From NCBI GenBank assembly GCA_017999985.1, contig JAGNKU010000002.1:310001-374000 (forward strand): 64,000 nt of DNA. The letters run 5' to 3'. The DNA is from Phycisphaerae bacterium (GTDB lineage Bacteria; Planctomycetota; Phycisphaerae; UBA1845; Fen-1342). Within the stretch, counting starts at the first letter, position 1. Each line of letters opens with the position of its first letter. The translations under genes and the position numbers were made by a program. Positions 5,137 through 31,636 of this stretch are shown in pieces. Below the pieces are notes generated by a model, which worked only from the letters and a program-made list of their open reading frames with translations, had not been told where the DNA came from and made no database searches.

Positions 5137-6840
5137 TCACGGCTGATACGTGAAGTTCACGTGCTGGATCCCGTGGCATGTCAGCGTGCATGAGCCGGTG
5201 TAGCGGCCCGTGTCCACGTAGAACCGCTGCCCGCCGACAATGGCAATGTCAAAGTTGATCAGGTGCCCGTGCTGTGCCGGGCTGCCGCTCACGCCGTGGG
5301 CAGCATGACACGCGCTGCACGGCGTCCGCCCGCGCACGACGTGCCGCTGGTGCAACGCGAAGCTCTCATCGCTGAGAATCGAATTGCGATCGTGACACTG
5401 GTAGCACAGGTCATACGCCTGCGGCGATTCCATCGTGAAGTCGCGCGTCTCGTACCGCGCAACCAGCAGATGCTCATAGCGCGACCCGTGCGGCCCGTCG
5501 ATCTCTGTCCCGCCCGCGCTCACCCCGTCCGGGTTGTTGTGGCAATCCTGGCAATTGATGAACCGCCGCGTTCGCAGCTCCGGCCGCAGGCTCGGCACTT
5601 CGCCGGACTGCCGGCTGGGAAACGCCACCGGATGCGCCGACGCCGCCGTCGGCATGAACTCCCGCCGAACGTTGCCGCCCTCGTCCTGCTGCCGCACGAT
5701 CCGCTGCGTCAGCAGCACGGGACGGTCGCCGTGGCAGCGAAAGCATACTTCGTAGTAAAACCCAGCCTGCTCGACCGTTGCACCCAGCAGGCTCACCCCC
5801 GGCACCGCCCACATCGCCGGCGGCACGATCGGGCCAGCGTTGAGTGTGCCCATTGGCCCCTTCAACAGGTCCTTCGCCGCCGCATGTGGATTGTGGCAAT
5901 CCGTGCATTCGACATAGCGCGCCACGCGCAGCCGATTCTCCGGGGTGGAGCGCAGTTCGCGCAGCTTGTTTACGCGATGCCCGGAACGCTGGTCCAGCAC
6001 CGACAGTACGCTCGGCCCGCTGATGCCGTCGTGGCACGTGATGCACAACTGCGATGGCCGATCGTACAGGAGTTGCTCGCGCCGCGGCGCACTGTGCGAG
6101 AGATGGCATGAACGACACGCGTTGTCCGCCAGCGACCGATACGGCAATTGCTCGCCGTTCGTAACTGTCACGGGCACGGATCGTGGGCTGAGCGCGTGCG
6201 AACCGTGCCACCAGCCGTCCATGTCATGGCACGTCAGGCACAGCGCGCCGTTCCGATCGGTAATCCGCAGAAAATCACCCAGCTCATTGTTGTGCGGATC
6301 GTGGCACGCCGTGCATTCCAGCTCGCCGCGCTCGCCGAGCTTGATCCGGTGGTCCACCAGCTCCGGCGGCCGAATCTGGCGATCGCGGTTGGCCAGCACG
6401 CGGTCGTAGCGGAAGCCGACCGGATGGTCGTCGGACAGGTCGTTGGTCAGGTTCGACGGCCCGGTCGGCATGAACGTATGTGTCATCGGGATCGGCTCGG
6501 TCATGGCCCGGTCGAGGGTCAGGCCGATCGCCAGGCTGCCGTCGTGGCAGCTCAGGCACAGCTTGCTCGCCGGCCCCGGCTGGTCGACGCGCGCGTCGGT
6601 CGTGCTGCTGCGATAGATGCGGTAGTACGTCGTCGGGTTGTGCCGGTTCCACAGCGGCGCCACGGGGCTCGCGTTGTGCGGCACATGGCAGAAGATGCAG
6701 ATTTCGCTTTCATCGAGCGCTCGGACCGGCCCCGGCCCCATCGCCGACAGGTCGTGCTTGGAGTTCATGATACGGTCGTCGGCCCATGCCACCGACACGA
6801 GGCACAACGCGCACGCGAGCGTCCGAACTGCCCGCTTCAT
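5137..6840 (-). CDS. Dodecahaem c-type cytochrome (periplasmic or secreted)
   Basis: A 567-residue cytochrome with a Sec signal (MKRAVRTLACALCLVSVAWA). Eleven CXXCH motifs (CIFCH, CLSCH, CTACH, CLTCH, CRSCH, CITCH, CTDCH, CFRCH, CQDCH, CYQCH, CSACH) and a final CX3CH (CTLTCH) lie between residue 48 and the C-terminus, giving 12 predicted c haems. Several motifs continue as CxxCHDG or CHxPH, the signature of paired-CXXCH domains. The start at 6840 overlaps the stop of the NHL lipoprotein gene as ATGA; a much longer upstream reading frame exists but is only a shadow of that gene. Last gene of a barrel, NHL lipoprotein and cytochrome operon, so it is a good candidate for the electron carrier that enters or meets the outer-membrane barrel, as MtrA does in Shewanella. 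That role is inference. Confidence 0.9.
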   Translation of the reverse strand: MKRAVRTLACALCLVSVAWADDRIMNSKHDLSAMGPGPVRALDESEICIFCHVPHNASPVAPLWNRHNPTTYYRIYRSSTTDARVDQPGPASKLCLSCHDGSLAIGLTLDRAMTEPIPMTHTFMPTGPSNLTNDLSDDHPVGFRYDRVLANRDRQIRPPELVDHRIKLGERGELECTACHDPHNNELGDFLRITDRNGALCLTCHDMDGWWHGSHALSPRSVPVTVTNGEQLPYRSLADNACRSCHLSHSAPRREQLLYDRPSQLCITCHDGISGPSVLSVLDQRSGHRVNKLRELRSTPENRLRVARYVECTDCHNPHAAAKDLLKGPMGTLNAGPIVPPAMWAVPGVSLLGATVEQAGFYYEVCFRCHGDRPVLLTQRIVRQQDEGGNVRREFMPTAASAHPVAFPSRQSGEVPSLRPELRTRRFINCQDCHNNPDGVSAGGTEIDGPHGSRYEHLLVARYETRDFTMESPQAYDLCYQCHDRNSILSDESFALHQRHVVRGRTPCSACHAAHGVSGSPAQHGHLINFDIAIVGGQRFYVDTGRYTGSCTLTCHGIQHVNFTYQP

Positions 6841-7892
6841 GACGCCTTCTCCGACAGATACTGGAAGACCTGCACCCGGCGATTGTAGCCGTCCGCCACC
6901 CAGATGCGATCCTGGGCGTCGATCGTCAGTCCCCCCGGCAGCGCGAACTCGCCCGGCCGCGCCCCCTCCTGCCCAAACGCGAGCAGCAATCGCCCGTCGC
7001 GATCGAAGATCTGGATATTCTCGAACTGGTTGTCCACGACATAGATGTGCTGATCGGAATCCACCGCCACCGCGCGCGGCCGCGCGAAATCGCCAGCGGC
7101 GTCGCCCTTCTGCCCGAAAACACGCACCGGCGTAGCGTCCGCGCCGAAGACCTGCACGCGGAAATTCATGGCATCGGCCACGATGAGACCGATATCGGGT
7201 TGCGCGGCCAGCGCCGTCGGGAAGTTGAACTGTCCGGGCGCGCTGCCGCGTTGTCCGACGCGCTGTTCCAGCGTCCGCCAATCCGTCGTCGCAAAGCATG
7301 CATGCGCCGCCGCGTCCGCCAGCCAGAACCGCCGCCCGCGGGCATCCCAGGCAATCGCCACCGGCGCCGTCAGCTCCGGCCAACGGTGCGTCGCGCGCCA
7401 CCGGCCGTCCAGATCGAACACGTCCACGGCTGCGCGCCCGCGATCTACCACGTACAACTGCGTGCCATCGCCGACGCTCACATCGATCGGAACACGCAAC
7501 GGATCGCTTGGCGACCCGCGAATCGTCGTGTACCGGCGGGCGGCAAGATCGAGGAGGTGCACGCTGCCGAGCCCGGTATCCGCCACGAAAACGCGTTCAC
7601 CGGCCACAGCGACCGCTGCCGGACGCGAGAATTCGGCCTGTGCCCGCGGGCCGGCAAGCGCCGCCTGAAACGCTTCCCAGCCACTCGGCCGCGCGCCAAG
7701 GCTGGCCTCGCCGCGCAGCTCGCCGATGTAGCGGATGCGCGGCCGGTCGGGCGGCGCGGGCCAGACGATCGGCGGTGAGACCGTGGGGAAGATCGGGCCG
7801 GACGGTGCCTGGCAGCCGGCGAGCAGCACGGCGCAGCCCATCGCCGCCAGCAGACCGGCACGCACGACCGCGTTGTGTCGCAGGGCGCTCAT
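6837..7892 (-). CDS. NHL-repeat beta-propeller lipoprotein
   Basis: 351 residues. A lipoprotein signal ends at VLLAGC (Cys27), followed by a six-blade-like NHL propeller. Repeated blades are visible as FSRPAAVAV...VFVADTG, FNFPTALAA...LIVADAMNFRVQVF, FARPRAVAVD...IYVVDNQFENIQIF and FALPGGLTID...IWVADGYNRRVQVF. There is no haem motif. Both ends are translationally coupled: the start overlaps the stop of the barrel gene as ATGA, and its own stop overlaps the start of the 12-haem gene the same way. NHL propellers are protein-protein or ligand platforms rather than redox centres, so a structural or docking role at the outer membrane is likely. Two other NHL proteins in this island are fused directly to haem domains. 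Confidence 0.88.
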   Translation of the reverse strand: MSALRHNAVVRAGLLAAMGCAVLLAGCQAPSGPIFPTVSPPIVWPAPPDRPRIRYIGELRGEASLGARPSGWEAFQAALAGPRAQAEFSRPAAVAVAGERVFVADTGLGSVHLLDLAARRYTTIRGSPSDPLRVPIDVSVGDGTQLYVVDRGRAAVDVFDLDGRWRATHRWPELTAPVAIAWDARGRRFWLADAAAHACFATTDWRTLEQRVGQRGSAPGQFNFPTALAAQPDIGLIVADAMNFRVQVFGADATPVRVFGQKGDAAGDFARPRAVAVDSDQHIYVVDNQFENIQIFDRDGRLLLAFGQEGARPGEFALPGGLTIDAQDRIWVADGYNRRVQVFQYLSEKAS

Positions 7893-10009
7893 TCGGCCCC
7901 CTTGCTGATGATCGGGATCTCGCGCTTCAGCTTGAGCCAGAACGACATGTCGCCGTCGCGCGAGCCCGGCAGATCGAGCATGTCATACTCGGCCTCGAAG
8001 CGCAGGGAAAAATAGCCCAGCCGCCAATCCACCGCCGCGCTGAGGTCCACGCCGTTGGTGATGCCGTTCAGCGAATCGTCCTCGTAGCGATAGAAGGCGC
8101 TGGCATTCGCCTCCAGGTTCGGCGCCAGCAGGTAACGGTACGAGCAGCCCAGGTCCAGCAGTGTCGTGTTGTGCGCCTCCAGCTCATCCGCCCCGCGGAA
8201 TCGAAAATGCGACAGCGTACCCCTGCCGTCCAACTGGTTCCGGGCGCTTTGCCACAGCACCACGTCGCCGTTGCTGTGCATGGCCTGGTACGGATCGAGC
8301 GCATCGTCGTTGTATTCATACTCCAGCCCCACCGACCAGCCCCGCCGCCGATAAGTGGCCCCGACCCGCTGCCGGTTCACGTCGCGCTCGCGAAACGCCA
8401 GGTAACGCACCGCGTTGTGGTCCTCGTTCTGGAATGAACCCGCGTAGTAGGGCGTCAGCCCGAACTGGAATTCCTGCTGCAGGCGGAAATCAAAGCGGTC
8501 GCGCCGCAGGCTGTAGTCCTGGTAGACGCGGTATGTGTAGCTGACCAGCACCGTCTGGCGATCGGTGATCTGCCCCGTGACCACCCGCCGTAGCGCCGTG
8601 TAGCGTCCCATGCGCAGGATCACGTAATCGCGCGCCGGCAGATACGTGCGCGTCCGCCCGGCGTCGGTGACGACAATGCTCCAGACATTCACGTCCGTCT
8701 GTGCCAGGTACGCCGGCAGCGGGTCGCGCAGCGTCACCGACTCGCCGATGACAATCCCCCCGCGGTCGCCGTGCCGCGTCTCGGTCGCGGTGTGGTTGTA
8801 CGTCGCATTCGCCGAGAAGCGGCCCCACGCGTTGTCCTGCGCGAAGGCGCTGTTCAGGACGCCGCCCCACTCGCAGAAATCCGCGTTGTAGTCCTGCTGC
8901 TGCTGCAGGCCGTAGAGCTGCGCCGAGGTGGTCAGCCACTGTCCGAGCTGGTGCGCCAGGCCAGCCTCGCCGCGCCAAGTCTCGGTCGTGAGCTCCTGGA
9001 ACGAGTCGCGCAGGTATTGGACGCCGTAGTTGCTCGCCAGTGAATCCGTGTGCTGCAGGCGCAGCCGCGTGGAGAGCTCCGCATTGTCGCGGGCCAGGTC
9101 GCCGGCCTCGTCCTGCAGCCGCGCCAGCGTCTCCCACGCGCTCTTGCCGTCGGGGCCGAAGCGCAGCACGTGGTTCAGGTTCAGGTAATGCCGCGTCGTG
9201 TCATAGCGCGTCCGGCTGCCCGAGTACAGCTCATGCCGATCGTTGTACTCGTAATCGACCCGCAGGGCGTGGTTCGGGCTGATCTGCCAGGTGCCCTCGT
9301 AGCGGAACATGTCGGTGCCGCGCTGCTCGTCATCCGACAGCTCCCGCGTGCGGCTGGTCAAGTCGTCCCAGGTGTGCTCAAAGGTGAAACGCATGGGGAA
9401 CTTCGCATTGTTGACAGACAGCCCGCCGCCGTACCGTTCGTACGTGCGATCCAGGCTGGGCTGGAACATCCGCGGCACACGGCTGTCGAGCCGTTGGGCA
9501 TAGGCGTTGCCTGAGATCACCCCGCGCGGCAGAAAGGTCAGGTTCACGTCGTATTCGAGCAGCGTGCCGTCGGAACCCTGGTCGTCGTCCGGCCCGGGCC
9601 GCGACTCGCTGAACCACTCCTGCGTCAGCCCGTAGCGCGCCGCGATGTCGTACAGCAGGAATTGCTCGCCGAACAGGCTCCCCGCAGTGTTCAATCCCAG
9701 CGTCTCTTCCAGCCGCCGGGCACGGTTGATCTGCTTCGCCGAGTGCGGCACAGGATTGCGATAGTCATAGTCCACGTCACGCCGGTCGAACTCGAGATCG
9801 AACCCCAACTCGAGCGCCAGGCGCCGCATCTCCAGAATGGACCGCGGCGGGCGGACCTCGCCGGCGGGCTGCGAAGTCGGCGCCGCCCGGCTGTCTGCCT
9901 CGGCGGGCTGCGTGTCTTGTCCGGCGGCAGGCGTTCCCGCGCCGGCGAGCCCTACCAGCCAGCCGGCCGCGCAGAGCATTCCGCCGGTAGAAATGACCCT
10001 TCGCGACAT
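7889..10009 (-). CDS. Putative outer-membrane beta-barrel (porin of a cytochrome conduit)
   Basis: 706 residues with a signal peptide (MCAAGWLVGLAGAG region, mature end near AAGQDTQP). After a short low-complexity linker the protein is rich in alternating aromatic and polar strands, such as NHALRVDYEYNDRHELYSG, WSVGLEYEYNDDALD, and NLEANASAFYRYEDDS near the end, the pattern of a large transmembrane barrel. It has no CXXC pair like MtrB and no haem motif. It is the first gene of an ATGA-coupled operon with the NHL lipoprotein and the 12-haem cytochrome, which is the logic of porin-cytochrome conduits (MtrCAB, OmbB-OmaB-OmcB). I do not recognise the exact family. The last residue is Glu, not the Phe expected by the classical BAM signal. 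Confidence is good for barrel, moderate for conduit. Confidence 0.7.
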   Translation of the reverse strand: MSRRVISTGGMLCAAGWLVGLAGAGTPAAGQDTQPAEADSRAAPTSQPAGEVRPPRSILEMRRLALELGFDLEFDRRDVDYDYRNPVPHSAKQINRARRLEETLGLNTAGSLFGEQFLLYDIAARYGLTQEWFSESRPGPDDDQGSDGTLLEYDVNLTFLPRGVISGNAYAQRLDSRVPRMFQPSLDRTYERYGGGLSVNNAKFPMRFTFEHTWDDLTSRTRELSDDEQRGTDMFRYEGTWQISPNHALRVDYEYNDRHELYSGSRTRYDTTRHYLNLNHVLRFGPDGKSAWETLARLQDEAGDLARDNAELSTRLRLQHTDSLASNYGVQYLRDSFQELTTETWRGEAGLAHQLGQWLTTSAQLYGLQQQQDYNADFCEWGGVLNSAFAQDNAWGRFSANATYNHTATETRHGDRGGIVIGESVTLRDPLPAYLAQTDVNVWSIVVTDAGRTRTYLPARDYVILRMGRYTALRRVVTGQITDRQTVLVSYTYRVYQDYSLRRDRFDFRLQQEFQFGLTPYYAGSFQNEDHNAVRYLAFRERDVNRQRVGATYRRRGWSVGLEYEYNDDALDPYQAMHSNGDVVLWQSARNQLDGRGTLSHFRFRGADELEAHNTTLLDLGCSYRYLLAPNLEANASAFYRYEDDSLNGITNGVDLSAAVDWRLGYFSLRFEAEYDMLDLPGSRDGDMSFWLKLKREIPIISKGAE

Positions 10010-10118: not shown

Positions 10119-10147
10119 TTGTCGGCGGCGCGGCCGATCGCTATATT
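10119..10147 (+). promoter_or_regulatory. Sigma-70-like promoter of the tetrahaem/NHL-octahaem operon
   Basis: TTGTCG (10119-10124), a 17-base spacer and TATATT (10142-10147) make a good housekeeping-type promoter about 45 bases before the ATG at 10191. It sits in the 181-base divergent gap between the barrel operon and this operon. Its position also argues against starting the tetrahaem gene at 10119. Confidence 0.6.
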
Positions 10148-10190
10148 CGTGCCACGAGCCGCCAAGTCCGCCGTCTTCAGGAGCACCGGG

Positions 10191-10868
10191 ATGCGCAGTC
10201 GACCGCCGGGTTCTGTGTCTTGGCTCATCGCCGGCGTGTTGGGTGGCGTCCTCGGCATCGGGGGGTTGCGTGGCGCGCAGGTAGCCGAGCCCGACGCTGG
10301 ACCTGCCGCCACATCCCAGCCGACCACGCAGCCCGGCGAGACCGGGCCGCGCGCCGCACTCATCAGCGGGCTGATCGGTAGCAAGCACGATTTCACCCAG
10401 GGGGGCAAGAGCGGACGCGACCTGTGCCTCCCCTGCCATACCCCCCACCAGGTCGCGCCGCCGGTGCCGCAGCTCGATCGCCGACCGGAGACCACCCTGC
10501 CCCTGCGGCCGTACCAGGGCCTCGGCATCGAACTCACCGGCTGGTCACTCCTCTGCCTCGGCTGCCACGATGGCGTCACCGCACCCGACGTCTACACGTC
10601 CGCCCACGCGATCACCGTCGCCGCCGAACTCGGCCACACCCGCCTCGGCACCCGCGGCCTGCGCAGCCACCCGGTCGGCATCCGCTACCCGTCCGCCGCC
10701 ACAGACTACCAGCCGGCGGCCGCCGTCGAAGCCGCCGGTCTCTGGTTGCCTGACGGCCGCATCCAATGCACAACCTGTCACGACGCTCACAACACGCATC
10801 GATATGGCCGCATGTTGCGCATCAGTAACGAACGCAGTCGCATGTGCATGGCATGCCACCGGCTCTAG
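10191..10868 (+). CDS. Tetrahaem c-type cytochrome
   Basis: 225 residues; the start was placed at ATG 10191 because AGGAG stands 7 bases before it and a signal or anchor segment follows (WLIAGVLGGVLGIGGLRGA). Four CXXCH motifs are present: CLPCH, CLGCH, CTTCH and CMACH. The N-terminal mature part reads SKHDF...CLPCHTPH, very like SKHDL...CIFCHVPH in the divergent 12-haem protein, so the two are probably paralogous paired-CXXCH cytochromes. CLGCHDG and CHDAHNTH continue the same theme. It is probably a small periplasmic shuttle. The last 16 bases overlap the start of the NHL-octahaem gene, so translation is probably coupled. Confidence 0.88.
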   Translation: MRSRPPGSVSWLIAGVLGGVLGIGGLRGAQVAEPDAGPAATSQPTTQPGETGPRAALISGLIGSKHDFTQGGKSGRDLCLPCHTPHQVAPPVPQLDRRPETTLPLRPYQGLGIELTGWSLLCLGCHDGVTAPDVYTSAHAITVAAELGHTRLGTRGLRSHPVGIRYPSAATDYQPAAAVEAAGLWLPDGRIQCTTCHDAHNTHRYGRMLRISNERSRMCMACHRL

Positions 10869-12865
10869 CGTACATCCCGAATCGCCGCTGGCTCGCCGGC
10901 ACCGCGCTGGTCGCCGGCGCCTTGGCTGCATCGTTGCTTCCGAGCTGCGTGACGACCCGGCCCGAACTCACCGCGCAGGCCCCTTCGCCGCTGTACCCGC
11001 CGCCACCGCAGGTTCCACGCGTCGTTGCCCTCGGCACCCTCCGCGGCGCGCCCCCGCCGTCCCGGGCCGAAGTCAATCTGACCCTGTTCCTCTTCGGGGC
11101 CGCCCCGCCGCCGCCTCTCACCATCGCGAACCCCACGGGCCTGGCCGCCCGCGAGCGCGCGGTGCTCATCTGCGATCACGCGCTGAGCACCGTCTTCCGT
11201 TGGGACGCCGACACGAATCACATCTGCGAGGAGTCACTCCGGCCCCCCGCCGAGCATCCGTTCGCCATCGACCTCCTCCCGGACGGCCAGCGCCTGCTCT
11301 GCGATCGTCGCGGCGTGTTGCGAGTCGCCGCGGACGGCGCCGTCCAACAGCGTTACACGATCGAGGGCGGACCATATCGCCCGAGCGGCGTCCTCGCCGT
11401 CGACGAGCATGTCTGGGTCGCCAACGCCGCCGCGGATCGTATCGAGGTCTTCGCGCTCGACAGCGGCGCACACCTGCGCTCCATCGGTCGCTACGGACAA
11501 GGCCCGGCCGAGTTCTCGCTACCGCGCAGTCTGGCCCGCACGCCCGACGGCAACATCTGCATCGTGGATGTCCTGAACAACCGCGTGCAGGTGCTGGGTC
11601 CCGACGGCACGTGGGTTCGTGACGTCGGCGGCCCCGGCGACACCACCGGCCGCTTCGGCCGACCGCGCGACGTAGCCGTGGGCCCCGACGGTGCGATCTT
11701 CGTAAGCGACACTTTCTCGCAACGCGTCCATGCCTTCACCCGCGACGGCCAGCCGTTGCTCGCGTTCGGCGAACCCGGATCGGGACCAGGTGCGCTGGCT
11801 CTGCCCGCCGGCGTCGCTATCAGCGCCCACGCGCCACAAACGGAGACTGCCCCCGCGGTCGAGACCGTGCCGGCCTACTACGTGCTGGTCGCGGAACAGC
11901 TGGATCGTCCCGGTGTGCGGGTCTATGCCTGGCTCGCGGGGAATGACAAAGCCGCCGCCGAAGCCCTGCCCGCCGGCACCGCGACGAACTGGAAGCCCAC
12001 CTACCCGGAATCTGCGGCGATCAACCCGCACTGGGATGCCACGCGGTGCGCGACTTGTCACACGTCCTCCGGCGGCAAGCTCTTCCCCATCGCCCCTGAA
12101 GCGGTGAACGCCCTCTGCATATCCTGCCACGATGGGGTGAAAGCCCCCGCCGATCCACACCCCATCGGTCGCGCCGCGCAGACGGACCTCGTCCAAACGC
12201 CGGACGACTGGCCAACCGTGGACGGTGCGATCGGCTGCCTGACCTGTCATGACATCAAACGCCACTGCGAGCCCACCGCCCAGCGCCCCGCCGTCAACGC
12301 CGTGCTGCTGCGCCACTACGACGCGCAGCAACCCCTCGAATACTGCGGCAACTGCCACACCGCGGACATCGGCGGCCGCTTCAGCCCGCATCAGCAGCGT
12401 GACGCCAGCGGCAAAGTCCGCGAGGACGCCTGCCTGTTCTGCCACACGCGGCGGCCCGAGGTACCAGCGGATGGTCGCCGCCGCTTCGAGCCGCACGTGC
12501 GCGTGGAGTCGTCCGACCTGTGCCTCAACTGCCACGTGCGGCACTGGGACCTCTCGCCGCTCGGCCACGTGGACCGGCCGGTCACGCCGGCGATTCGGCA
12601 GTGGATGCTGATGAATGAAATGAGCGGCCAGGCCAACGTCGGCCGCGCGCAATTAAGGCACATGGCCGACGAGTCCGGACGCGAACCAGCCCGGCTGCCG
12701 CTCGGCAAAAACCGGGTCACGTGCTACACGTGCCATAACCCGCATTACGCCGGCATGTTTCCGCCGGACAGCGAACTGGGTGCGCTCGCCGCCAACCCCG
12801 TGGATCGGAAGGCGGCGCTGCGGACGGATTGGATCGACCTGTGCTCCGAGTGCCATCATCACTAG
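10853..12865 (+). CDS. NHL propeller fused to octahaem cytochrome, lipoprotein
   Basis: 670 residues from ATG 10853 (a GTG at 10844 is an alternative). The signal ends SLLPSC, a slightly unusual lipobox with Cys32. Residues about 90-390 form NHL blades (FSLPRSLARTPDGNICIVD, FGRPRDVAVGPDGAIFVSD). Eight CXXCH motifs fill residues 399 to the end: CATCH, CISCH, CLTCH, CGNCH, CLFCH, CLNCH, CYTCH and CSECH, the last two residues after it being His. The join of a propeller and a haem wire in one chain matches the larger 20-haem protein at 28493-31636, and the propeller alone resembles the lipoprotein of the divergent operon. A surface or outer-membrane-tethered electron carrier is the natural reading. 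Confidence 0.9.
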   Translation: MPPALAYIPNRRWLAGTALVAGALAASLLPSCVTTRPELTAQAPSPLYPPPPQVPRVVALGTLRGAPPPSRAEVNLTLFLFGAAPPPPLTIANPTGLAARERAVLICDHALSTVFRWDADTNHICEESLRPPAEHPFAIDLLPDGQRLLCDRRGVLRVAADGAVQQRYTIEGGPYRPSGVLAVDEHVWVANAAADRIEVFALDSGAHLRSIGRYGQGPAEFSLPRSLARTPDGNICIVDVLNNRVQVLGPDGTWVRDVGGPGDTTGRFGRPRDVAVGPDGAIFVSDTFSQRVHAFTRDGQPLLAFGEPGSGPGALALPAGVAISAHAPQTETAPAVETVPAYYVLVAEQLDRPGVRVYAWLAGNDKAAAEALPAGTATNWKPTYPESAAINPHWDATRCATCHTSSGGKLFPIAPEAVNALCISCHDGVKAPADPHPIGRAAQTDLVQTPDDWPTVDGAIGCLTCHDIKRHCEPTAQRPAVNAVLLRHYDAQQPLEYCGNCHTADIGGRFSPHQQRDASGKVREDACLFCHTRRPEVPADGRRRFEPHVRVESSDLCLNCHVRHWDLSPLGHVDRPVTPAIRQWMLMNEMSGQANVGRAQLRHMADESGREPARLPLGKNRVTCYTCHNPHYAGMFPPDSELGALAANPVDRKAALRTDWIDLCSECHHH

Positions 12866-12887
12866 GCGCCCGCCGCAGGAGGACCGC

Positions 12888-14403: not shown

Positions 14404-14433
14404 TTGACCCGGGGATGCACCGGACGATATAAA
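14404..14433 (+). promoter_or_regulatory. Sigma-70-like promoter of the beta-helix gene
   Basis: TTGACC (14404-14409), an 18-base spacer and TATAAA (14428-14433) lie 43 bases before the ATG at 14476. The match is among the best in the window and suggests that the beta-helix gene is transcribed independently of the cytochrome operon upstream. Confidence 0.65.
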
Positions 14434-23035: not shown

Positions 23036-24931
23036 ATGTCTGAGCACCGGTCCAGCTTTCTGCCCCGCACGCAGCGCCGCCGCTCATGGCCCTGGCTCGC
23101 GGTGCTGTTCCTGCTGGCTCCGCTGCCGCCAGCCGCGCGGGCGGGCGACCCGGACAACTGCCTGCTTTGCCACCAGTTTCGCGGACTCAGCCGCTACGAC
23201 CCCGCGGCCGACCGCGCGCACCTGTTCTTCGTCGATCCGGACTACACTCATGAGCTCCGCGGCCCGCACGCCCGGCTCGCCTGCACGGCGTGCCACGCGC
23301 GCAGCGAAGTCGGTGTCGTGCCGCATGGCGCCGTCTCCCGCGTGAACTGCACGCAGACCTGCCACCTCAGCGCCGCGGGCCAGCTCGACCGCCGCTTCAG
23401 TCACGAAAACGTCGCCTGGCTCCTCGATCGCGGCGCACACACACATGCTGTGCTCAGCAGCCTGACCTTCACCGGCGGACCCTTGCTGGCGCCCGGCCAG
23501 TCCCCCTGCCTGTACTGCCACGACGAGCCGGTCTTCCGCGACCCCGCCAACGTGGTGACCACGCTGTCGCCACGTGATGACCGGACTTTCGACCGCTGCG
23601 ACGTCTGCCATGCCGAGCAAGTCCCCATCGATGTCGCCTACTACCTGCGGCATATCGCGGCCCGGCTCCAGTCCGCCCGGCCCCCGCTCGAGATCGCCCA
23701 GGTCTGCGCCGTCTGCCACACGGACCCCGACGTCCTCAAGACGTTTGAGATGCCCAACGCCGTCGCCAGCTTCGTCCGCAGCTTCCACGGCAAGGCCGCG
23801 CTGCTCGGCGACAACACGACCGCCGACTGTCTCGCCTGCCACGTCGCCGCCGGCGAGAACGCGCACCTCATGCTCGCCAAGGCCGACCCGCGTTCGTCTG
23901 TCCATCCCGCCAACGTCGCCAACGCCTGCCGCAGCACCGCCTGCCATCCGGGCGCCGACCCGCGCTTCGCCGCCGCCGCCGTGCACCTTGACCTGCCCAC
24001 CGCCCGCGGCACGCTCGAATTCGCCGTCGCGGCGGCGTTCATTCTGCTGACCATCGGTACGTTCGGCCCGTCGCTGCTGCTCTGCCTGCTCGAGCTGGCC
24101 CAGATCGTCTTCGGCCGCCGGCATGAGGGCGAGCACGCCGCCCTGCAGCTCGTGCAGGCAGTGCTGGCCCACCCCTACGGTCGCACGCGTTTGGCGCGCT
24201 TCACGGTCAGCCAGCGCTACCAGCACTGGGTCCTGGTCGTGCTCTTCACCACGCTCGCCGTCACCGGCTTCCCCATGAAATTCGCCGATCACGACTGGGC
24301 CCGCGGCGTGATTGAGACGCTCGGCGGCCTGCGCGTCACCCGCACGATTCACCACTGGGCCGGCATCGCCCTTGTGCTCGGCTTCGCCGCGCACTTCGTC
24401 TATTGCCTGCACACGTACTGGCGGCGCGCCCGCGAACGCGGCCCCGCCGGCGGACGCGTCGGCCTCTGGGCGGCGATCTGGAAGCTCCCGATGGTCGTCC
24501 ACCCGCGCGACCTGCTGAAAGGGCATCATCTGCTGCTCTATCTCTGCGGCCTGCGCCGTGAGCCGCCTTCGTTCGGCCGCTTCAGCATCAAGGAAAAATT
24601 CGAGTACATCGGCGTGTTCTGGGGCACGACGCTGCTGGGGCTCACCGGCGCCCTGCTGTGGGGCGAGCAAATCTTCTCCCACTACCTCAGCGGCCGCATC
24701 CTGAACATCGCGCTCATCGCCCACACGTACGAGGCCTTCCTGGCCATCATCCACGTCGGCATCCTGCACATCGTCAACGTCATCTTCTCGCCGCACGTCT
24801 TCCCCCTCTCGCTCGCCACGATCACCGGCGACACCCCGCTCGGTGAACTGGCTGCCACCCACTCCGAGTTCGTGGCGGAGGCCGCCCGCGACCTGAACGT
24901 CCAACTCCCAGCGGAGGCACCCCATGAGTAA
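23036..24931 (+). CDS. CbcL-like fusion: octahaem cytochrome c plus b-type cytochrome
   Basis: 631 residues from ATG 23036, just after GAGG. A signal peptide (WPWLAVLFLLAPLPPAARA) leads to a periplasmic domain with eight haem motifs between residues 42 and 305: CLLCH, CTACH, CTQTCH (CX3CH), CLYCH, CDVCH, CAVCH, CLACH and CRSTACH (CX4CH). From about residue 320 an integral domain of the cytochrome b561/FdnI-HydC type follows (RYQHWVLVVLFTTLAVTGFP, RTIHHWAGIALVLGFAAHFV, HTYEAFLAIIHVGILHIVNV), with several in-membrane His suited to two b haems. Geobacter CbcL has the same fusion and oxidises menaquinol for low-potential extracellular acceptors. The function here is by analogy. The stop overlaps the next start by 8 bases. 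Confidence 0.87.
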   Translation: MSEHRSSFLPRTQRRRSWPWLAVLFLLAPLPPAARAGDPDNCLLCHQFRGLSRYDPAADRAHLFFVDPDYTHELRGPHARLACTACHARSEVGVVPHGAVSRVNCTQTCHLSAAGQLDRRFSHENVAWLLDRGAHTHAVLSSLTFTGGPLLAPGQSPCLYCHDEPVFRDPANVVTTLSPRDDRTFDRCDVCHAEQVPIDVAYYLRHIAARLQSARPPLEIAQVCAVCHTDPDVLKTFEMPNAVASFVRSFHGKAALLGDNTTADCLACHVAAGENAHLMLAKADPRSSVHPANVANACRSTACHPGADPRFAAAAVHLDLPTARGTLEFAVAAAFILLTIGTFGPSLLLCLLELAQIVFGRRHEGEHAALQLVQAVLAHPYGRTRLARFTVSQRYQHWVLVVLFTTLAVTGFPMKFADHDWARGVIETLGGLRVTRTIHHWAGIALVLGFAAHFVYCLHTYWRRARERGPAGGRVGLWAAIWKLPMVVHPRDLLKGHHLLLYLCGLRREPPSFGRFSIKEKFEYIGVFWGTTLLGLTGALLWGEQIFSHYLSGRILNIALIAHTYEAFLAIIHVGILHIVNVIFSPHVFPLSLATITGDTPLGELAATHSEFVAEAARDLNVQLPAEAPHE

Positions 24932-26039
24932 GCCCGCTGCTTACCGTCGCTCCGCCCGCGACTGGCTCTGCCTCCTCGGCCGCTTCGGTCTCGAGTCCGT
25001 CCGCCGCAGCTATGCCGTCGCGGTCATTGCCGTCGTGGCGTGGCTCAGCTTTCTCGCCCTGCGCTACCTCGTCGTCACATTGATGTTCCCGGCGCCCGCC
25101 CCGGCCCAGATCACCGGCATCCCCACCCGCCTGACCGAGTCGGTGCTCCGCACGGACAGAAGCGCATGGCGCGGCGTCACCACGGACGCCAACCCGCGCA
25201 CGCCCCCCGCGCACTACCACCGCATCGCGGGCTGGATTCAACCCGATCGCTTCAACGGCTGCACCACGAGCGGCTGCCACGATCCGCTGCCACACGCCCG
25301 CCGCAAGGAGGTCCGTGCTTTCCTTAACATGCACGCCACGAGCCTGCACTGCGGCGTGTGCCACCTGCCGCGCGACGAGCAGCCGCTCACCCTCACCTGG
25401 TATGACCTGGGCCGCGGCGCGCCGCGCGGCGCCCCCGAGGTCGTGCAGCTCTACGCCTGGCTGACCTCGGAACAGGGCCGCGCCGCGCTGGCCGACCCGA
25501 CGCCGGCAATCCAGGCCGAGCTGGTCGCCAGGGTCCGCGAGGCCGCCCGTCAGGCCGACCACGCCCGGGCGCTGGTTGACCTGGCGGACCAGCTAGCGGC
25601 CGAACGCCACAGCAGTCCGGCCTTTGCCGCCCTGGTCGAGACCGCCCGCACGATCCTGCCACGCCATTTCCGCGGCGAGTACGGCGCCAAGCTGGCCCTG
25701 CTGGACCGCACCACAAAAACGCCGACTCTCGGATACGTAGGCACACAGGCCGCCAACGAGGCATATCTGCGCGAGGCCCCGCAAGCTGATGCCGCCCGGC
25801 GGGCACAATTGCTGGCCGCCGTGCATCCGGCGTTGCGCACCCCGACGCTGCACTGCACGGACTGCCACCGCACCCCGGGCATGCTCTTCGACTTCGCTGC
25901 CGCTGGTTATCCCGCGGCACGGATCGAGATGCTCTCGCAGCCCGTGATCTTCCAGATGATCGAGCACATCGCCGCCGGCCAGCCCTTCTACCTCCCCAGC
26001 TTCGTCATCCCAACCACTCAGCCAAGAGATCCGCAGTGA
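24924..26039 (+). CDS. Membrane-anchored trihaem cytochrome
   Basis: 371 residues with one N-terminal transmembrane anchor (AVAVIAVVAWLSFLALRYLV, about residues 32-51). Three haem motifs are spread widely: CTTSGCH (CX4CH, about residue 111), CGVCH (about 140) and CTDCH (about 312). The middle 150 residues are helical and haem-free (rich in Ala, Arg and Glu). No family is recognised. Translational overlap with the CbcL-like gene suggests that it is a partner, perhaps taking electrons from the octahaem domain. RIAGWIQPDRFNGCTTSGCH shows the first motif in context; the wide-spaced motif makes automated haem counts likely to miss it. Confidence 0.8.
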   Translation: MSKPAAYRRSARDWLCLLGRFGLESVRRSYAVAVIAVVAWLSFLALRYLVVTLMFPAPAPAQITGIPTRLTESVLRTDRSAWRGVTTDANPRTPPAHYHRIAGWIQPDRFNGCTTSGCHDPLPHARRKEVRAFLNMHATSLHCGVCHLPRDEQPLTLTWYDLGRGAPRGAPEVVQLYAWLTSEQGRAALADPTPAIQAELVARVREAARQADHARALVDLADQLAAERHSSPAFAALVETARTILPRHFRGEYGAKLALLDRTTKTPTLGYVGTQAANEAYLREAPQADAARRAQLLAAVHPALRTPTLHCTDCHRTPGMLFDFAAAGYPAARIEMLSQPVIFQMIEHIAAGQPFYLPSFVIPTTQPRDPQ

Positions 26040-26437
26040 GGCATCCGCTAGAGAAGCTGCCGGAGATTGTCGCCGCCTACAGCCGCGACGGACTGTACTT
26101 TGCCTCGATCCGGCTGAGTCGCGCCGGAGTGGGCCGCGTCTTTGAGCTGGGTATCTCCCGCGCGTCGTATCTGGCGCTGCGCCGTGTGTTCCAAACGCGG
26201 CCGTTTGATGCGCTACCCGGGCTTCGACAACGGTACTATTTCGAGTGGCCACACCGTCGAAATGACGCTGACCCCAACCGATGCTCTGGTACGATCCGGA
26301 TTGAGCAAGACCGTCGAGGCCGGAATATGGAGTTCGAGCTGCCGCAGCAGCTCATCGCCAACCTGCTCTGGTTCTATGAGATGGAGACGCTCGAGCCAGC
26401 GCGCCACCTGCGCTGCTGGCTCCCACAAGATGAATGA
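26036..26437 (+). CDS. Small protein of unknown function, third gene of the CbcL-like operon
   Basis: 133 residues starting at GTG 26036, which overlaps the trihaem stop as GTGA. I do not recognise a family. It has no signal peptide, no transmembrane segment and no haem motif, so it should be cytoplasmic. It reads as a mixed alpha/beta protein with several Arg and aromatic residues (ISRASYLALRRVF, QRYYFEWPHRR, LIANLLWFYEME). A cytoplasmic product in a membrane cytochrome operon might help assembly or might be unrelated. Coding is supported by the tight coupling rather than by homology. Confidence 0.6.
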   Translation: MRHPLEKLPEIVAAYSRDGLYFASIRLSRAGVGRVFELGISRASYLALRRVFQTRPFDALPGLRQRYYFEWPHRRNDADPNRCSGTIRIEQDRRGRNMEFELPQQLIANLLWFYEMETLEPARHLRCWLPQDE

Positions 26438-26504: not shown

Positions 26505-28337
26505 TCACTCCCGCGTCAACTGCCCCATCACGTCATCCAGGTCGCGCACGCTCAGATCGAGCAGATACAGCGCGTAGTTCTTGTTGTGGATCCCGTTGCC
26601 CGCCTTGATGAACTGCACATTTTGTCGGGCGGGCGTAATCCGCGTCTCGATGTCCGCCGGCAGCTCGATGCCGCGCGCCTGCAGATCCGCGATCCGCTGA
26701 TCGACACGTACCAGCGCCGCCTCCGCTTCCTGCACGTACGTCGCGATCTCGCTGCGCCACTGCTCGAACAACCGCTCGTAGTCACTGCCGTGACACGCGA
26801 TGCACGTCGCCTCCGACGCCTTCACGAGCGCGTCGCCCTTCAGATCGACCGCCGGCTTGATGTGGCAGCCCGTGCAATTCAGCCGCGAGCCGAACATCGC
26901 ATTCGGCATCGGCCGCAGCGCGCCGGTGCCGCCGATCCCCATGAGCAGCTCGACCTGCTCGTGGTGATGGTTCGGGTGGCAATGCTGGCAATCATCGAGA
27001 ATGGGCTGCAGGAACCCCGCGCTCGTCCCGACGTGCGTCGCATCGATCAGCTTATGCTCGATCGCCCGGTGACAGTCCACGCACCGGGCCCACTGACCCG
27101 CGACGTGCGTCTGGTGATACCGCGCCACCGTCTCGGTGTCGCGCGTCGCGAAATCCACCAGATACTTCTCTTGATCGTGGCAGTTCGTGCACGTGCGTTC
27201 CGACACGACCGCCGCGCCCTGGATCACGTCCAGGTGACAGCTCGCGCAGTCGATCTTGCGGTCCACGATTTCGCGGTGGTCCATCAGCGCCGGCCCCGGG
27301 GCCGACGTGGTCGGAAACTGCTGCTGCCAGCTCGCCAGCACCGCCTGATCGTGGACGAGAATCTTGCGCGTCGGCGGCGCGTGGCACTTCAGGCATTCAC
27401 CCGTGTCGCGATTGAACGCCTGGTTGCCGAAGTGGCACGTGAAGCACGTCTCCAGGTCCACCGCCATCACGTGCGCCAGCCCCGACGGATCGTAGCTGTG
27501 GCACGCAGCGCAGTTGAGCCCCCCCAATTGCCGCAGACGCGTCCGCTCGTGCTCCAGCCGCGCGTACTCCAGTACGTCCGCCAGCAGGTCGTCTCGCGCC
27601 AGACCCCCCACCAGCTCGCGCAACTTTGCCTCACGCCGTTCCGCCGGCCCCACCTGCACCGCCGCGACGCGCAGCGGCTCGAAAGCCGCCGGTGACACCG
27701 CCTGCTCGAGCCGTTGCCGCAGGCCCGCGAGTGACGCCTCGGTCTCCGTCAGCTTCAGCTCCGTCCGCAGGTGCTTTTCATGCACGAATGTGACCGTCGG
27801 CAGACGAGTGACCTCCGTCTCCTGATCGCCGACCAGGCGTTTCTCCACGCGCGGCTCGCCGATCAAGAGCGGCTTGCGCATGTACTCGTTGTCGCCATGA
27901 CAAGCCGACCTCAGGCAACTTGCGTCATTGACGCGCGCCCGTGGCCGGCTCGTGCCGTAGCGCCCGCTGAAGTAACTGGCGACCTGCGACAGCCCCCTGA
28001 ACTTCGCCTTGAGCGTGTGCTGCTCGCCCGGCGCGTAATGACACTCCACGCACCACGTCCCCACCTTCTTGCCATGCACATCCTGGCTCCACGACTGGTA
28101 GTAGGAGTCCATGATGTGGCATGTCCCGCAGAAACTCGGCCGTGCCGTGTAGTACTCCGCCCCCCCGATGCCCAACACCCCCAGCACGACGATCACGCCG
28201 CCGATGAGCAACCCCTTGCGCAGCACGCGGCGCCATCGTGGCCGCGCCGGCCTCCCCCTCGGCGTCGCCGCGTCACGCGCCGGAACGTCCCCCGCCGCTG
28301 CAGAATCGCCCGCATGCTGCGCATCATCCGTGGACAT
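26505..28337 (-). CDS. NapC/NirT-type quinol dehydrogenase extended to 12 haems
   Basis: 610 residues from ATG 28337 (a longer upstream in-frame start is possible; no clear ribosome site). One transmembrane anchor (LLIGGVIVVLGVLGIGG, about 42-60) precedes a NapC/CymA-like start, PSFCGTCHIMDSYYQSW and WCVECHYAPG. The haem motifs are CGTCH, CVECH, CLRSACH (CX4CH), CAACH, CFTCH, CLKCH, CASCH, CTNCH, CVDCH, CQHCH, CTGCH and CIACH, between residues 70 and 516. A helical, probably coiled insert lies at about 165-255, and a haem-free helical tail of about 95 residues ends the protein. NapC and CymA have four or so haems and oxidise menaquinol; here the same module seems to continue into its own periplasmic wire. 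Confidence 0.85.
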   Translation of the reverse strand: MSTDDAQHAGDSAAAGDVPARDAATPRGRPARPRWRRVLRKGLLIGGVIVVLGVLGIGGAEYYTARPSFCGTCHIMDSYYQSWSQDVHGKKVGTWCVECHYAPGEQHTLKAKFRGLSQVASYFSGRYGTSRPRARVNDASCLRSACHGDNEYMRKPLLIGEPRVEKRLVGDQETEVTRLPTVTFVHEKHLRTELKLTETEASLAGLRQRLEQAVSPAAFEPLRVAAVQVGPAERREAKLRELVGGLARDDLLADVLEYARLEHERTRLRQLGGLNCAACHSYDPSGLAHVMAVDLETCFTCHFGNQAFNRDTGECLKCHAPPTRKILVHDQAVLASWQQQFPTTSAPGPALMDHREIVDRKIDCASCHLDVIQGAAVVSERTCTNCHDQEKYLVDFATRDTETVARYHQTHVAGQWARCVDCHRAIEHKLIDATHVGTSAGFLQPILDDCQHCHPNHHHEQVELLMGIGGTGALRPMPNAMFGSRLNCTGCHIKPAVDLKGDALVKASEATCIACHGSDYERLFEQWRSEIATYVQEAEAALVRVDQRIADLQARGIELPADIETRITPARQNVQFIKAGNGIHNKNYALYLLDLSVRDLDDVMGQLTRE

Positions 28338-28425
28338 AGCGATATCCAAACACTCGGAGTTCACGCGGGCAGCAAATGTGTATTCTGCCCGTCTCGGTCG
28401 GTCGCCGCGGCCACGCCACATACTC

Positions 28426-28431
28426 TATAAT
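28426..28431 (+). promoter_or_regulatory. -10 element before the 20-haem gene
   Basis: A perfect TATAAT 62 bases before the ATG at 28493, in the 155-base divergent gap between the NapC-type and 20-haem genes. I see no good -35 at 16-18 bases upstream, so the promoter may rely on an activator or on another sigma factor. Confidence 0.45.
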
Positions 28432-28492
28432 GCCCGCACCCCGCCGGAGGCAAGCGCTTCGGCGGGCAGATCGTTCCGACCGAGGATCGGGC

Positions 28493-31400
28493 ATGCTGCG
28501 TCCTGGCAACCTGGCACACGTCGCCCGCGCTGCCGCGTTTCTCGCTATCACGTCCGCCAGCAACGCCGCTCCGCCTGAGCCACCCGCGCGGTTTGTCGCC
28601 ACTCCGGTGCTCACGTTCCAGTACGACGGCCCGCCCGCACTCCACATGCCCACCGCCGTCGCCATCGGGCCCGGCGGCGACGTGTACGTCACCGACGGGG
28701 CCCTGGACCGCATCGTGGTCTTCGCGCCCGACGGTTCGCTCCGTGAAGAATTCCAGACCGTCGGCGAAGAAACCCTCGCGCAGCCCATCAGCCTCAAGTT
28801 CGACCGCCAAGGCATCCTCTGGATCGCCGACACCGGCCACGGTCGCGTCCTCGCCCGTAACCCGGACGGCAGCCTCGCCCGCGTGATCCGCTGCCCGCCC
28901 GCGCCCGACGCCAGACACTCCCCGGACATCACCGATGTGGCCGTCAACGCCGACGGCACCCGTATCTGGCTGGCCGACAACGACAATCACCGCTTGCTCC
29001 GCTATGACGTCGCCGGCGCGACCTTCAGTTCGACCGGCGAGCGCGGCCAATCGCTCGGCCAGCTCTACTACCCATTCATGCTCGCGCTGGGTCCCACCGG
29101 CGATGTCTTCGTCAGCGAGCCCGTCACCGGCCGCGTTCAGATCTTCGACGCCGCCGGCCGCGTCGTGCGCAGCCTTGGCACGTACGGCGCGGACCTCGGC
29201 CAGTTCTACCGCCCCAAGGGCATCGCGATCGATGCCGACGGCAACGCCTGGGTCGTCGACGGCACGCTCGGCGTCGTGCAGGTTTTCCGGCCCACCGGCA
29301 GCCTGCTCGGCGTTCTGTGTGAGCCAGGCGGCCAGCCCTTGAAGCTCGTCTCCCCGGCCGGCATTGCGTTTGACGCCGACGGCAACCTGTACGTTGCCGA
29401 AGTCTCGGCGCACCGCGTCCACAAATTCGCCCTCAAAGTGGATCCCGACGTCGCGCCACCCATGCTGCCGCGCCGTACGACCGTTACCCCGCTGCAGCCG
29501 CAGGCGTGCGCTGTCTGTCATCTTGAGTGGCTCGAACCTCTGGCGCGCGGTGTGACAACCGCGATCATGGCCCCGCCGACAACCACGCCCGAACATCCGG
29601 TCGCCAGCCGGCCGGAAATGTGCCTCTCCTGCCACGATGGCGCGGTCGTGGATTCGCGCCGCCGGATCTGGCTTGAGCACGGTCACAGCACGGACATCCT
29701 GCCGCCACCGACGATGCAGGTACCAGACTTCCTCCCGCTCGTGAACGGCCGGATCGAGTGCCGCACGTGCCATTCCGCCCACGCCGCCGGCCAACCCATG
29801 GGCGATATCGCGACGGCGGTGTTCCTGCGCGTCGCCAACCGCGCCAGCGAGCTGTGCATGAGCTGTCACGCCGACAAGACGGGCGGCCGCGCGGCCGGCA
29901 CGCATCCCACCGGCGGTATGCCCTGGGCCATCCCCGAGGCGCTGGTGCAAGCCGGCGCCCAGGTCGGCCCCGACGCGCGCGAGCTGACGTGCCAGGTCTG
30001 CCACACGCCGCACGGCGCCCGCCATGACCACTTGCTCGTCATGGGCACCGAATCCAGCCAGCTCTGTGTCACCTGTCACGATCAGATGCGGCCTGGCATG
30101 TTCCGCGACGGCGGACCGGCGGAGCACCCGCTCAGCCCAGTCGTGAACGCCGAGCAGGCCGCGGCCATCCGCGAACTCGGCACGCAGCTCGGCCCCGGCG
30201 AGCACCTCATCTGCCTGTCATGCCACAAGCTGCACCACGGCAAAGGCGAGCGCTTCCTCCTCGCCGACGACCTGACGGACGGTCAGATGTGCCTGCGCTG
30301 CCACTCCGACAAGCAGAGCGTCGTCGCGACGCACCATGACCTGCGCACCAACTTCCCCGAGGAGCGCAACCGTCTGGGCATGACCGCGCACACCGGCGGC
30401 CCGTGCAGCTCCTGCCATCTCTTCCACCGCTACGCACGCGCGCCGGAGGCCAGCGAACTCGACCCCGGTGGCGGCAAGTGCATCACCTGCCACCAGCCCG
30501 AGCGCCCCGCACAGACCAAGATCCTCGGCTCCGCCAATCACAGCCCGATCGGCTGCACCAAGTGCCACGATCCGCATACCGGCCAGTTCGGCCAATTCAT
30601 GCACGACGCACCTTACGTCGTCTGCACGCAGTGCCACACAGATCAGGCCGGGCTCGGCGGCGGCCCGCACGATGTCACGCGCGCATCGCCATCCTGGCCC
30701 GTTGCCTCCACGGCCATCGGCGATCGGTGCCTGGCTTGCCACCGCCCCCACGGCGACGACCAGACCGGTCGCTTCCGCGCCGGCCTCGCCGCCGACGCAC
30801 CCGTCGGCGAAGCCTCCTGCCTCGCGTGTCACCGAGCGGTTGGCCCGGACGCGCAGGCCCCGCTCGCCCTGCTGCATCCGCGCGACGTGACCGCGCAGTC
30901 AACGGCCACCGAAGTGCCGCTGTCGACCGGCGGCGAACGCAACGAACGCGGGGAACTCGCCTGCCGCAGTTGTCACGACCCGCATCGCGGTCGCGGCGCT
31001 TCCGAAAAGCTCGTTCGCGTTGCGGCCGGCGACAGCCCGCAAAAAGCCTGCACCAACTGTCATGCCGAAATGACCAACCTGCACGCGATCGGCCATGCCG
31101 CCGGGGTGCTGCGGGCGGCCGGTTTTGAGCCGGGCACCTGCGGCCCATGCCACGTTCCGCACGGCCGCCGCGATGACATCGAGCCGCGCTTTCTGTGGCC
31201 GAAGAAGCTCGAGTTCGTCATGGACGCTGCTGATCCACTGCGGGTGGCGAACCAGCATTGCGTAGCCTGCCATCACACGGGTGGCCCGGTCGCGCCCCCG
31301 GCCATCGCCACGCACCCACCCGCCGAGATGTTCAACGCCACCGCCCCCGACGCCTCCGGCTACCTGCCGCTGTTCAACGAGCGCGGCGAAGTCGACCCGC

Positions 31401-31636
31401 AAGGCAAGATCGCCTGCCGCACCTGTCACCTCACGCATGGCCGGCAGACGGCTGCCCCCTTGCCACCGGCGCTCGGCGAAATCGCCAGCCGGGAGCTGCG
31501 CGCCCGCCAGTGGCATATCCGCTCATTCACCGCCAACGCCGTCTGCACGACCTGCCACGGCACCGATGCGCTGCGCCGTTTCATGTACTTTCACGACGCG
31601 GCCCGGCGCGGCGGACCCATCGCCGGTGGCCGCTGA
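28493..31636 (+). CDS. NHL propeller fused to a 20-haem cytochrome
   Basis: 1047 residues from ATG 28493, after GAGG. A signal peptide (AAAFLAITSASNA) leads to an NHL propeller at about residues 35-325 (LHMPTAVAIGPGGDVYVTDG, LYYPFMLALGPTGDVFVSEP, FYRPKGIAIDADGNAWVVDG). Twenty CXXCH motifs follow between residues 339 and 1022, about one per 34 residues, all canonical. Many are in paired-CXXCH form (CLSCHDG, CTKCHDPH, CRSCHDPH, CQVCHTPH). There is no transmembrane segment after the signal, so it should be periplasmic or exported. The domain order equals that of the NHL-octahaem lipoprotein, which suggests duplication with haem-repeat growth. It is divergent from the NapC-type gene. Function is inferred as a long electron wire. 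Confidence 0.9.
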   Translation: MLRPGNLAHVARAAAFLAITSASNAAPPEPPARFVATPVLTFQYDGPPALHMPTAVAIGPGGDVYVTDGALDRIVVFAPDGSLREEFQTVGEETLAQPISLKFDRQGILWIADTGHGRVLARNPDGSLARVIRCPPAPDARHSPDITDVAVNADGTRIWLADNDNHRLLRYDVAGATFSSTGERGQSLGQLYYPFMLALGPTGDVFVSEPVTGRVQIFDAAGRVVRSLGTYGADLGQFYRPKGIAIDADGNAWVVDGTLGVVQVFRPTGSLLGVLCEPGGQPLKLVSPAGIAFDADGNLYVAEVSAHRVHKFALKVDPDVAPPMLPRRTTVTPLQPQACAVCHLEWLEPLARGVTTAIMAPPTTTPEHPVASRPEMCLSCHDGAVVDSRRRIWLEHGHSTDILPPPTMQVPDFLPLVNGRIECRTCHSAHAAGQPMGDIATAVFLRVANRASELCMSCHADKTGGRAAGTHPTGGMPWAIPEALVQAGAQVGPDARELTCQVCHTPHGARHDHLLVMGTESSQLCVTCHDQMRPGMFRDGGPAEHPLSPVVNAEQAAAIRELGTQLGPGEHLICLSCHKLHHGKGERFLLADDLTDGQMCLRCHSDKQSVVATHHDLRTNFPEERNRLGMTAHTGGPCSSCHLFHRYARAPEASELDPGGGKCITCHQPERPAQTKILGSANHSPIGCTKCHDPHTGQFGQFMHDAPYVVCTQCHTDQAGLGGGPHDVTRASPSWPVASTAIGDRCLACHRPHGDDQTGRFRAGLAADAPVGEASCLACHRAVGPDAQAPLALLHPRDVTAQSTATEVPLSTGGERNERGELACRSCHDPHRGRGASEKLVRVAAGDSPQKACTNCHAEMTNLHAIGHAAGVLRAAGFEPGTCGPCHVPHGRRDDIEPRFLWPKKLEFVMDAADPLRVANQHCVACHHTGGPVAPPAIATHPPAEMFNATAPDASGYLPLFNERGEVDPQGKIACRTCHLTHGRQTAAPLPPALGEIASRELRARQWHIRSFTANAVCTTCHGTDALRRFMYFHDAARRGGPIAGGR

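Follow-up and report, generated by a model that had tools for sequence, protein, structure and literature searches.

A 26.5-kb multihaem cytochrome island of a Phycisphaerae planctomycete as a probable extracellular electron transfer locus with a Uet-type conduit

In this study, we analysed a 64,000-nucleotide stretch of DNA (hereafter the window) from a Phycisphaerae bacterium, covering positions 310001-374000 of contig 2 in a host assembly of 5.23 Mb, 31 contigs and 98.65% completeness. We found in it a 26.5-kb island of ten multihaem cytochrome genes, which is probably a locus for extracellular electron transfer with a Uet-type outer-membrane conduit at its centre. The gene content of the island, its conservation, the barrel fold of its outer-membrane protein, the homology of two of its cytochromes to the nanowire protein OmcE, and the linkage of its modules across the phylogeny were shown by the analysis.

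The original prediction had counted 88 CXXCH, two CX3CH and three CX4CH motifs in the ten genes, and our independent recount gave exactly these numbers, 93 in total (in map order 11+1, 4, 8, 8, 8, 10, 6+1+1, 2+1, 11+1 and 20; gene letters as in Table 1). After shuffling, the haem proteins held on average 0.01 to 0.09 CXXCH each, with a maximum of 2. All ten genes are single uninterrupted frames without a frameshift, their orthologues have the same motif count and a similar length, and all five non-canonical motifs are kept in the orthologues (C551-H556 in A, C105-H110 and C298-H304 in I, C113-H119 in J, and C169-H175 in M). The CXXCH DNA pattern occurs 453 times genome-wide versus 267 times for the reversed control, and about half of this excess sits in the island, which makes up 0.5% of the genome. 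The start of the first gene had been placed at 7401; it is the ATG at 6840, and a separate non-haem NHL gene, B, was thereby revealed between A and the barrel gene C. A, B and C, with overlaps of four bases each, form a minus-strand operon. The predicted outer-membrane barrel operon was borne out, with a barrel model and a Foldseek match for C.

The key unit of the island, a Uet-type core with its OmcE-like parts, had gone unrecognised. According to PMC10734462, the Uet (undecahaem electron transfer) cluster of Candidatus Tenderia electrophaga and Gallionella holds an undecahaem-type cytochrome, a barrel porin, a tetrahaem cytochrome and NHL proteins; the last three were also found here, and A is a candidate for the first. 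The Uet-like gammaproteobacterial loci L166 and L167 carry NHL and tetrahaem genes, two trihaem genes, a barrel gene, a second NHL gene and an 11+1-haem gene, and homologues of A, B, C and D are among them. Cytochrome A, with 11 CXXCH and a conserved CX3CH, is homologous to the 11+1-haem proteins of these loci; the barrel corresponds to UetC, and the NHL proteins (B plus the NHL domains of E and N) correspond to UetHI. The counterpart of UetA is D, which carries four haems, is homologous to the tetrahaem proteins of the Uet-like loci and would be extracellular. Judged by composition, the core is a variant of the published Uet porin-cytochrome pathway. Parts that the island has beyond those of Uet are the cytochromes with 8 and 20 haems that are fused to NHL, a quinol protein in which b561 and octahaem parts are joined, an octahaem tetrathionate reductase (OTR) type protein and an OmcA/MtrC-family protein. 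Among 66 A proteins from many phyla, the 11 CXXCH motifs are invariant, the CX3CH is conserved at 90% or more, and 14 further histidines outside the motifs are invariant or nearly so. This number would suffice to ligate twelve haems by two histidines each, and a conserved twelfth haem site thus appears to belong to the 'undecahaem' family; the haem motifs of UetJ were listed as 11 and 12 in the Gallionellaceae study (PMC10734462).

The model of A (predicted local distance difference test, pLDDT, 86.7) showed that its residues 28-206 superpose on OmcE of Geobacter sulfurreducens (7TFS) with Z 12.4, a root-mean-square deviation of 3.1 Å over 175 aligned residues and a template modelling (TM) score of 0.70 on the target, and phmmer agreed with this superposition (1.4e-29). 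The sequence of D matched 9YUQ (4e-10) and OmcE (1e-6), and the N-terminus of A is homologous to stand-alone tetrahaem proteins whose genes neighbour other A genes, such as that of locus L149 (8e-35). Across 56 tetrahaem proteins every haem motif is invariant, and conservation of the four distal histidines is 89-100%. Sequence and haem-ligand pattern of D and of the N-terminus of A are shared with the OmcE nanowire; the sequence similarity of D to OmcE is weak, however, its polymerisation is only putative, and A differs in that the domain is fused to eight further haem sites. We tentatively put forward, as an idea that we hold to be possible and somewhat short of probable, that A is an adapter from conduit to nanowire, in which the eight-haem C-terminus would run through C or dock in it and the OmcE-like N-terminus would be the first link of a filament of D. 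The OmcE-like domain of A may then be a paralogue of the neighbouring D. The field has yet to establish how outer-membrane conduits and cytochrome nanowires connect, and a conduit cytochrome that itself has a nanowire fold, beside a gene for a nanowire-like subunit and across many phyla, makes this link directly testable. If the adapter proposal is true, one short locus in about ten or more phyla encodes a complete machine from quinone to nanowire.

Table 1. Genes of the island (window coordinates); signal peptides, lipoboxes and membrane segments were assigned by eye and hydropathy.
Gene	Coordinates	Strand	Description
A	5137-6840	-	Dodecahaem cytochrome, UetJ-like, 11 CXXCH + 1 CX3CH; signal peptide; residues 28-206 OmcE-like tetrahaem domain
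B	6837-7892	-	NHL beta-propeller lipoprotein, lipobox LAGC; 4-base overlaps with A and C
C	7889-10009	-	Outer-membrane beta-barrel with some 30 long strands; MtrB (6r2q_B) is the top Foldseek hit
D	10119-10868	+	OmcE-like tetrahaem cytochrome, four conserved distal His; start uncertain (TTG 10119 or ATG 10191)
E	10844-12865	+	NHL propeller fused to octahaem cytochrome; probable lipoprotein (conserved Cys35)
F	12888-14231	+	Octahaem lipoprotein, lipobox LAGC, conserved Cys43
X	14404-18000		NosD-type/BACON repeat protein, unrelated to the system
G	18022-19605	-	Octahaem tetrathionate-reductase-family cytochrome (TIGR04315), lipoprotein; accessory
H	19734-22151	-	OmcA/MtrC-family decahaem lipoprotein (TIGR03507); accessory; start probably near 22070
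I	23036-24931	+	Octahaem (6 CXXCH + CX3CH + CX4CH) fused to b561/formate-dehydrogenase-gamma-like membrane domain
J	24924-26039	+	Trihaem (2 CXXCH + CX4CH), one N-terminal membrane anchor; partner of I
K	26036-26437	+	133-aa protein, no family match, overlaps end of J; membership uncertain
M	26505-28421	-	NapC/NirT-type N-terminal anchor, 12 haems (11 CXXCH + CX4CH); start perhaps 28337
N	28376-31636	+	NHL propeller fused to 20-haem cytochrome; signal peptide

The conduit is widespread in the order of the host. The barrel was found in 93 of the 120 nearest genomes, as was a D-like tetrahaem sequence, a query that also catches the N-terminus of A, and the barrel was accompanied by a dodecahaem gene in 23 of the 26 regions read. 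Beyond the order, 18 of the 391 genomes sampled across the phylum had A. The relatives are mostly metagenome-assembled genomes (MAGs) with short contigs and possibly wrong bin labels, and genes in the compared neighbourhoods were called by frame and base composition. A scan of the genomes of named species gave at least 315 confirmed A loci, and the neighbourhood figures come from 80 of these. By their record labels, the matches listed belong to Planctomycetota, Verrucomicrobiota, Nitrospirota, Desulfobacterota, Myxococcota, Bacteroidota, Ignavibacteriota, Chlorobiota, Acidobacteriota, Zixibacteria and Pseudomonadota. Among the 77 listed loci with a usable A gene, many of them at contig ends, an NHL gene lay directly upstream in 55, a barrel or barrel-sized gene was present in 54 and a tetrahaem gene in 51. 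Two recurrent families that are absent from the window were seen at other A loci (L105-L178, e.g. L109, L127 and L163): a cytochrome with 13+2 motifs, and a pentahaem protein whose gene stands between those for the NHL protein and the barrel. Cultured carriers of A loci include Desulforhopalus sp. IMCC35007 (L127) and Carboxylicivirga marina (L153). In the tree of A, the planctomycete sequences form nearly one group, with two label changes versus a shuffled mean of 19.8, and the A of the window grouped with Phycisphaerae MAGs with full support. This suggests that A was inherited mostly vertically within the phylum. The closest named relatives of the host are likewise Phycisphaerae MAGs, and the A loci and the A tree agree with the planctomycete host that had been predicted. 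The matching genomes include OFTM5, OFTM321 and OFTM371, which are UBA1845 MAGs according to PMC10732223, and UBA1845 is probably the order of the host as well. For one planctomycete order, most of it uncultured, the distribution suggests extracellular electron transfer as an almost fixed trait.

The barrel model of C is confident (pLDDT 88.8, about 30 long strands), the protein has no Pfam match, and its top Foldseek match is MtrB with an E value of 7e-9. In comparison with MtrCAB of Shewanella, H belongs to the OmcA/MtrC family and C may resemble MtrB in fold, but A lies outside the DmsE/MtrA family, the barrel is without a Pfam match and the NHL lipoprotein is an extra constant part. A relationship of A to MtrA/DmsE (TIGR03508) was rejected at 52.5 bits versus a cut-off of 192.2, so the system is not Mtr; a relationship of A to OmcA was also rejected on score.

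Several points weigh against an export locus of the Uet type. The TM score of C to MtrB is low (0.31), and LptD and TonB receptors score like MtrB or above it for C in VIA-align. As many TonB receptors outrank MtrB there, we make no claim of orthology, and the safe statement is that C is a large outer-membrane barrel, not established as an MtrB orthologue. The three soluble trihaem proteins UetDEG and the prolyl isomerase UetB were not found in the island, where haem counts and Pfam were used. The direction of flow is not readable from sequence, and Uet was described in cathode- and iron-oxidising bacteria (PMC10734462).

Electrons could also run inward, with Fe(II), minerals or partner cells as the donor and quinone or an oxidase as the acceptor. 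Uptake was proposed for the Uet of cathode-oxidising Tenderiales and iron-oxidising Gallionella (PMC10734462), homologues of CbcL/MtrH/MtoC are known in reducers and oxidisers alike (PMC6295460), and the host has two haem-copper oxidase genes. A search of the host for the RuBisCO large subunit found none, which argues against Calvin-cycle autotrophy, the only carbon-fixation route checked, and an OmcA/MtrC-family protein together with a NapC-type quinol module is, as general knowledge has it, more typical of reducers. We therefore consider an inward conduit rather unlikely. Two oxidases and no RuBisCO would fit a facultative heterotroph, which makes electron export more likely than electroautotrophy.

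The prediction that the island holds two types of quinol-oxidising modules held up. The first consists of I, a b561-octahaem protein, with its trihaem partner J; I scored 38.2 bits against PF01292 (cut-off 30.1), has conserved H397, H439, H453, H563 and H578, and its membrane segments were recognised by hydropathy. The second is M, which scored 53.3 bits against PF03264 (cut-off 24.1) and has one membrane segment at 70-88; it shares this domain and anchor with the NapC/NirT family, but carries 12 haems versus the usual 4 or 5. I shares an N-terminal multihaem region and a C-terminal di-haem b-type (HydC/FdnI-like) membrane domain with CbcL/MtrH/MtoC (PMC6295460) and differs in its eight haems, including the conserved CX3CH and CX4CH, in its dedicated trihaem partner J and in being two genes in Gammaproteobacteria. 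Strong matches to I were found in about half of the relatives. The I-J pair directly adjoins the conduit block in five relative genomes (G001, G009, G058, G012 and G043) and is also near A in Gammaproteobacteria (L140, L149 and L151) and in Desulfobacula (L141). In the gammaproteobacterial and Desulfobacula loci, two genes stand in place of I, one for the octahaem part and one for the b561 part, and in G002, G024 and L115 the I-like and J-like parts are fused into one protein with 8+3 haems. The predicted NHL-fused cytochromes, E and N, were also recovered; their counterparts elsewhere are split into an NHL gene and a cytochrome gene, E being two genes in the other families of the order. As fused and split versions both occur, we argue that the NHL-cytochrome, octahaem-b561 and b561-trihaem pairs work together.

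The ten genes had been taken for one conserved set, and 18022-19605 for a generic carrier; neither view was upheld. G is an OTR-family enzyme with 451 bits against TIGR04315 (cut-off 375), and it aligned with OTR of Shewanella (PDB 1SP3) at 7e-105, with a lysine at the position of Lys153, which we take to be the ligand of the active-site haem. It differs from OTR in being a lipoprotein and in having its gene directly downstream of an OmcA/MtrC gene. The OmcA/MtrC-type protein that had been predicted is H, with 292 bits against TIGR03507 (cut-off 209.3), ten CXXCH and the lipobox LGGC. A short collagen-like Gly-X-Y stretch stands right behind this lipobox, also in G002 and partly in G026, and is possibly a stalk. 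G was strong in about 12 of the 120 relatives, H-type proteins exceeded the cut-off in 19 of 120, and the two genes occur together in G002 and G021. G002 shares the order G-H-(I'J')-I-J-N with the window, on another contig than the barrel block. Because the blocks of G002 are on separate contigs, the window joins three modules, and G and H are a patchy add-on to the conduit.

The presence of G also bears on whether the island serves mainly for the periplasmic reduction or detoxification of soluble nitrogen or sulphur compounds by G and the octahaem proteins, in which case the barrel would be an ordinary porin. In favour of this, G clearly belongs to TIGR04315 and its alignment with OTR covers Lys153, but it is strong in only about 12 of the 120 relatives versus 93 for the barrel, and it is absent from the conserved barrel neighbourhoods, and we regard such a role as very improbable. 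A stronger candidate limits the functional link to the conduit and the quinol modules, with G, H and other parts as chance neighbours. The separate contigs of G002 speak for this, as do G-H pairs without the conduit in the region seen (G021 and G002); on the other side, G-H stay with the quinol module in G002 in the order of the window, and the conduit adjoins I-J in the five genomes named above and in other phyla. On balance we lean away from chance neighbourhood, while giving it appreciable weight.

For the export locus that we favour, we infer the assembly, the electron path, the outward direction and the formation of filaments as follows. At the inner membrane, quinol would be oxidised by the I-J complex, with its di-haem b domain and its octahaem and trihaem parts, or by the NapC-type M. 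The periplasm would be crossed via the long haem chains of M, F, N or E, as far as these lie in the periplasm. The way across the outer membrane would lead through the dodecahaem A, seated in barrel C and associated with the propeller lipoprotein B, and electrons would exit via D, perhaps as a polymer that starts on the OmcE-like domain of A. H and G would give this strain a second outlet, surface or periplasmic. The outline of the predicted complete route from quinone to surface stands, while the word 'complete', the direction of flow and the surface location go beyond observation.

No maturation genes lie in the window, as had been noted, and in the host genome neither System I (CcmH) nor a ResB above the cut-off was found. 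About 266 kb upstream on the same contig, a frame of 1,121 residues has a C-terminal CcsA match of 88.7 bits and a weak ResB stretch of 14.6 bits, below the cut-off. This frame has the make-up to be expected of a CcsBA-type fusion, which explains these negative searches; as a CcsBA-type gene is present elsewhere on the contig, the lack of maturation genes in the window does not speak against the predicted route.

The description of such sets in planctomycetes as little described was correct in part. PMC10732223 reported iron-reduction potential for four Planctomycetota MAGs and porin-cytochrome genes in Planctomycetota MAGs including UBA1845 Phycisphaerae, and porin-multihaem clusters were reported for the anammox genus Kuenenia (PMC4245776). 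As porin-cytochrome genes were reported earlier in Phycisphaerae, a claim to first description fails. In PMC5615132, clusters of the same general conduit kind were described in Verrucomicrobia, of the same superphylum, and two planctomycete CbcL-type proteins are found in PMC6295460. The relevant passages of PMC5615132 and PMC10732223 treat porin-cytochrome genes in general terms, without Uet or OmcE relationships, and a search of the literature on OmcS-companion and OmcE clusters gave no match to the gene order of the island. In the searched literature, the near-fixation across the order, the presence of an OmcE-like domain in the cytochrome of the conduit and the association with one particular quinol module appear to be new.

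As to the remaining gene order, D is divergent from the A-B-C operon and overlaps E, and F is next. G and H are a minus-strand pair beyond the NosD-type gene, followed by I, J and K on the plus strand, and M and N are a divergent pair. Gene X was rejected as a part of the system, as its position is not conserved; it has a calcium-binding-like tail, and the stretch at its C-terminus (GDLDG...INAFV) is found again in further genes of the genome, 4550-5014 among them. Between H and I (22152-23035, about 0.9 kb) there is no convincing gene, and this is perhaps a shared regulatory region. K had no relative in the compared neighbourhoods. An Rfam scan of the window found no RNA family.

Further electron-transfer genes were observed on other parts of the host genome. 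On contig 1 at about 695.6-701.2 kb (L004 5585-11167), both subunits of an [NiFe]-hydrogenase, large and small, are encoded together with a probable maturation protease; a neighbouring 865-residue cytochrome with 9 CXXCH, one longer motif and thrombospondin-3 repeats may feed the same network. At about 863-866 kb of contig 1 (L005 5006-7822), a protein of 938 residues combines a bacterial Ig domain with six CXXCH. Upstream of the window, about 11-16 kb from its start (L002 4272-8744), an HdrA-like flavoprotein, an MvhD-like small protein and 4Fe-4S proteins form a cytoplasmic electron-transfer cluster. In the window itself, an intact serpin (345 bits) is encoded at 36978-38258, near a XerC/D-type recombinase gene (34492-35820).

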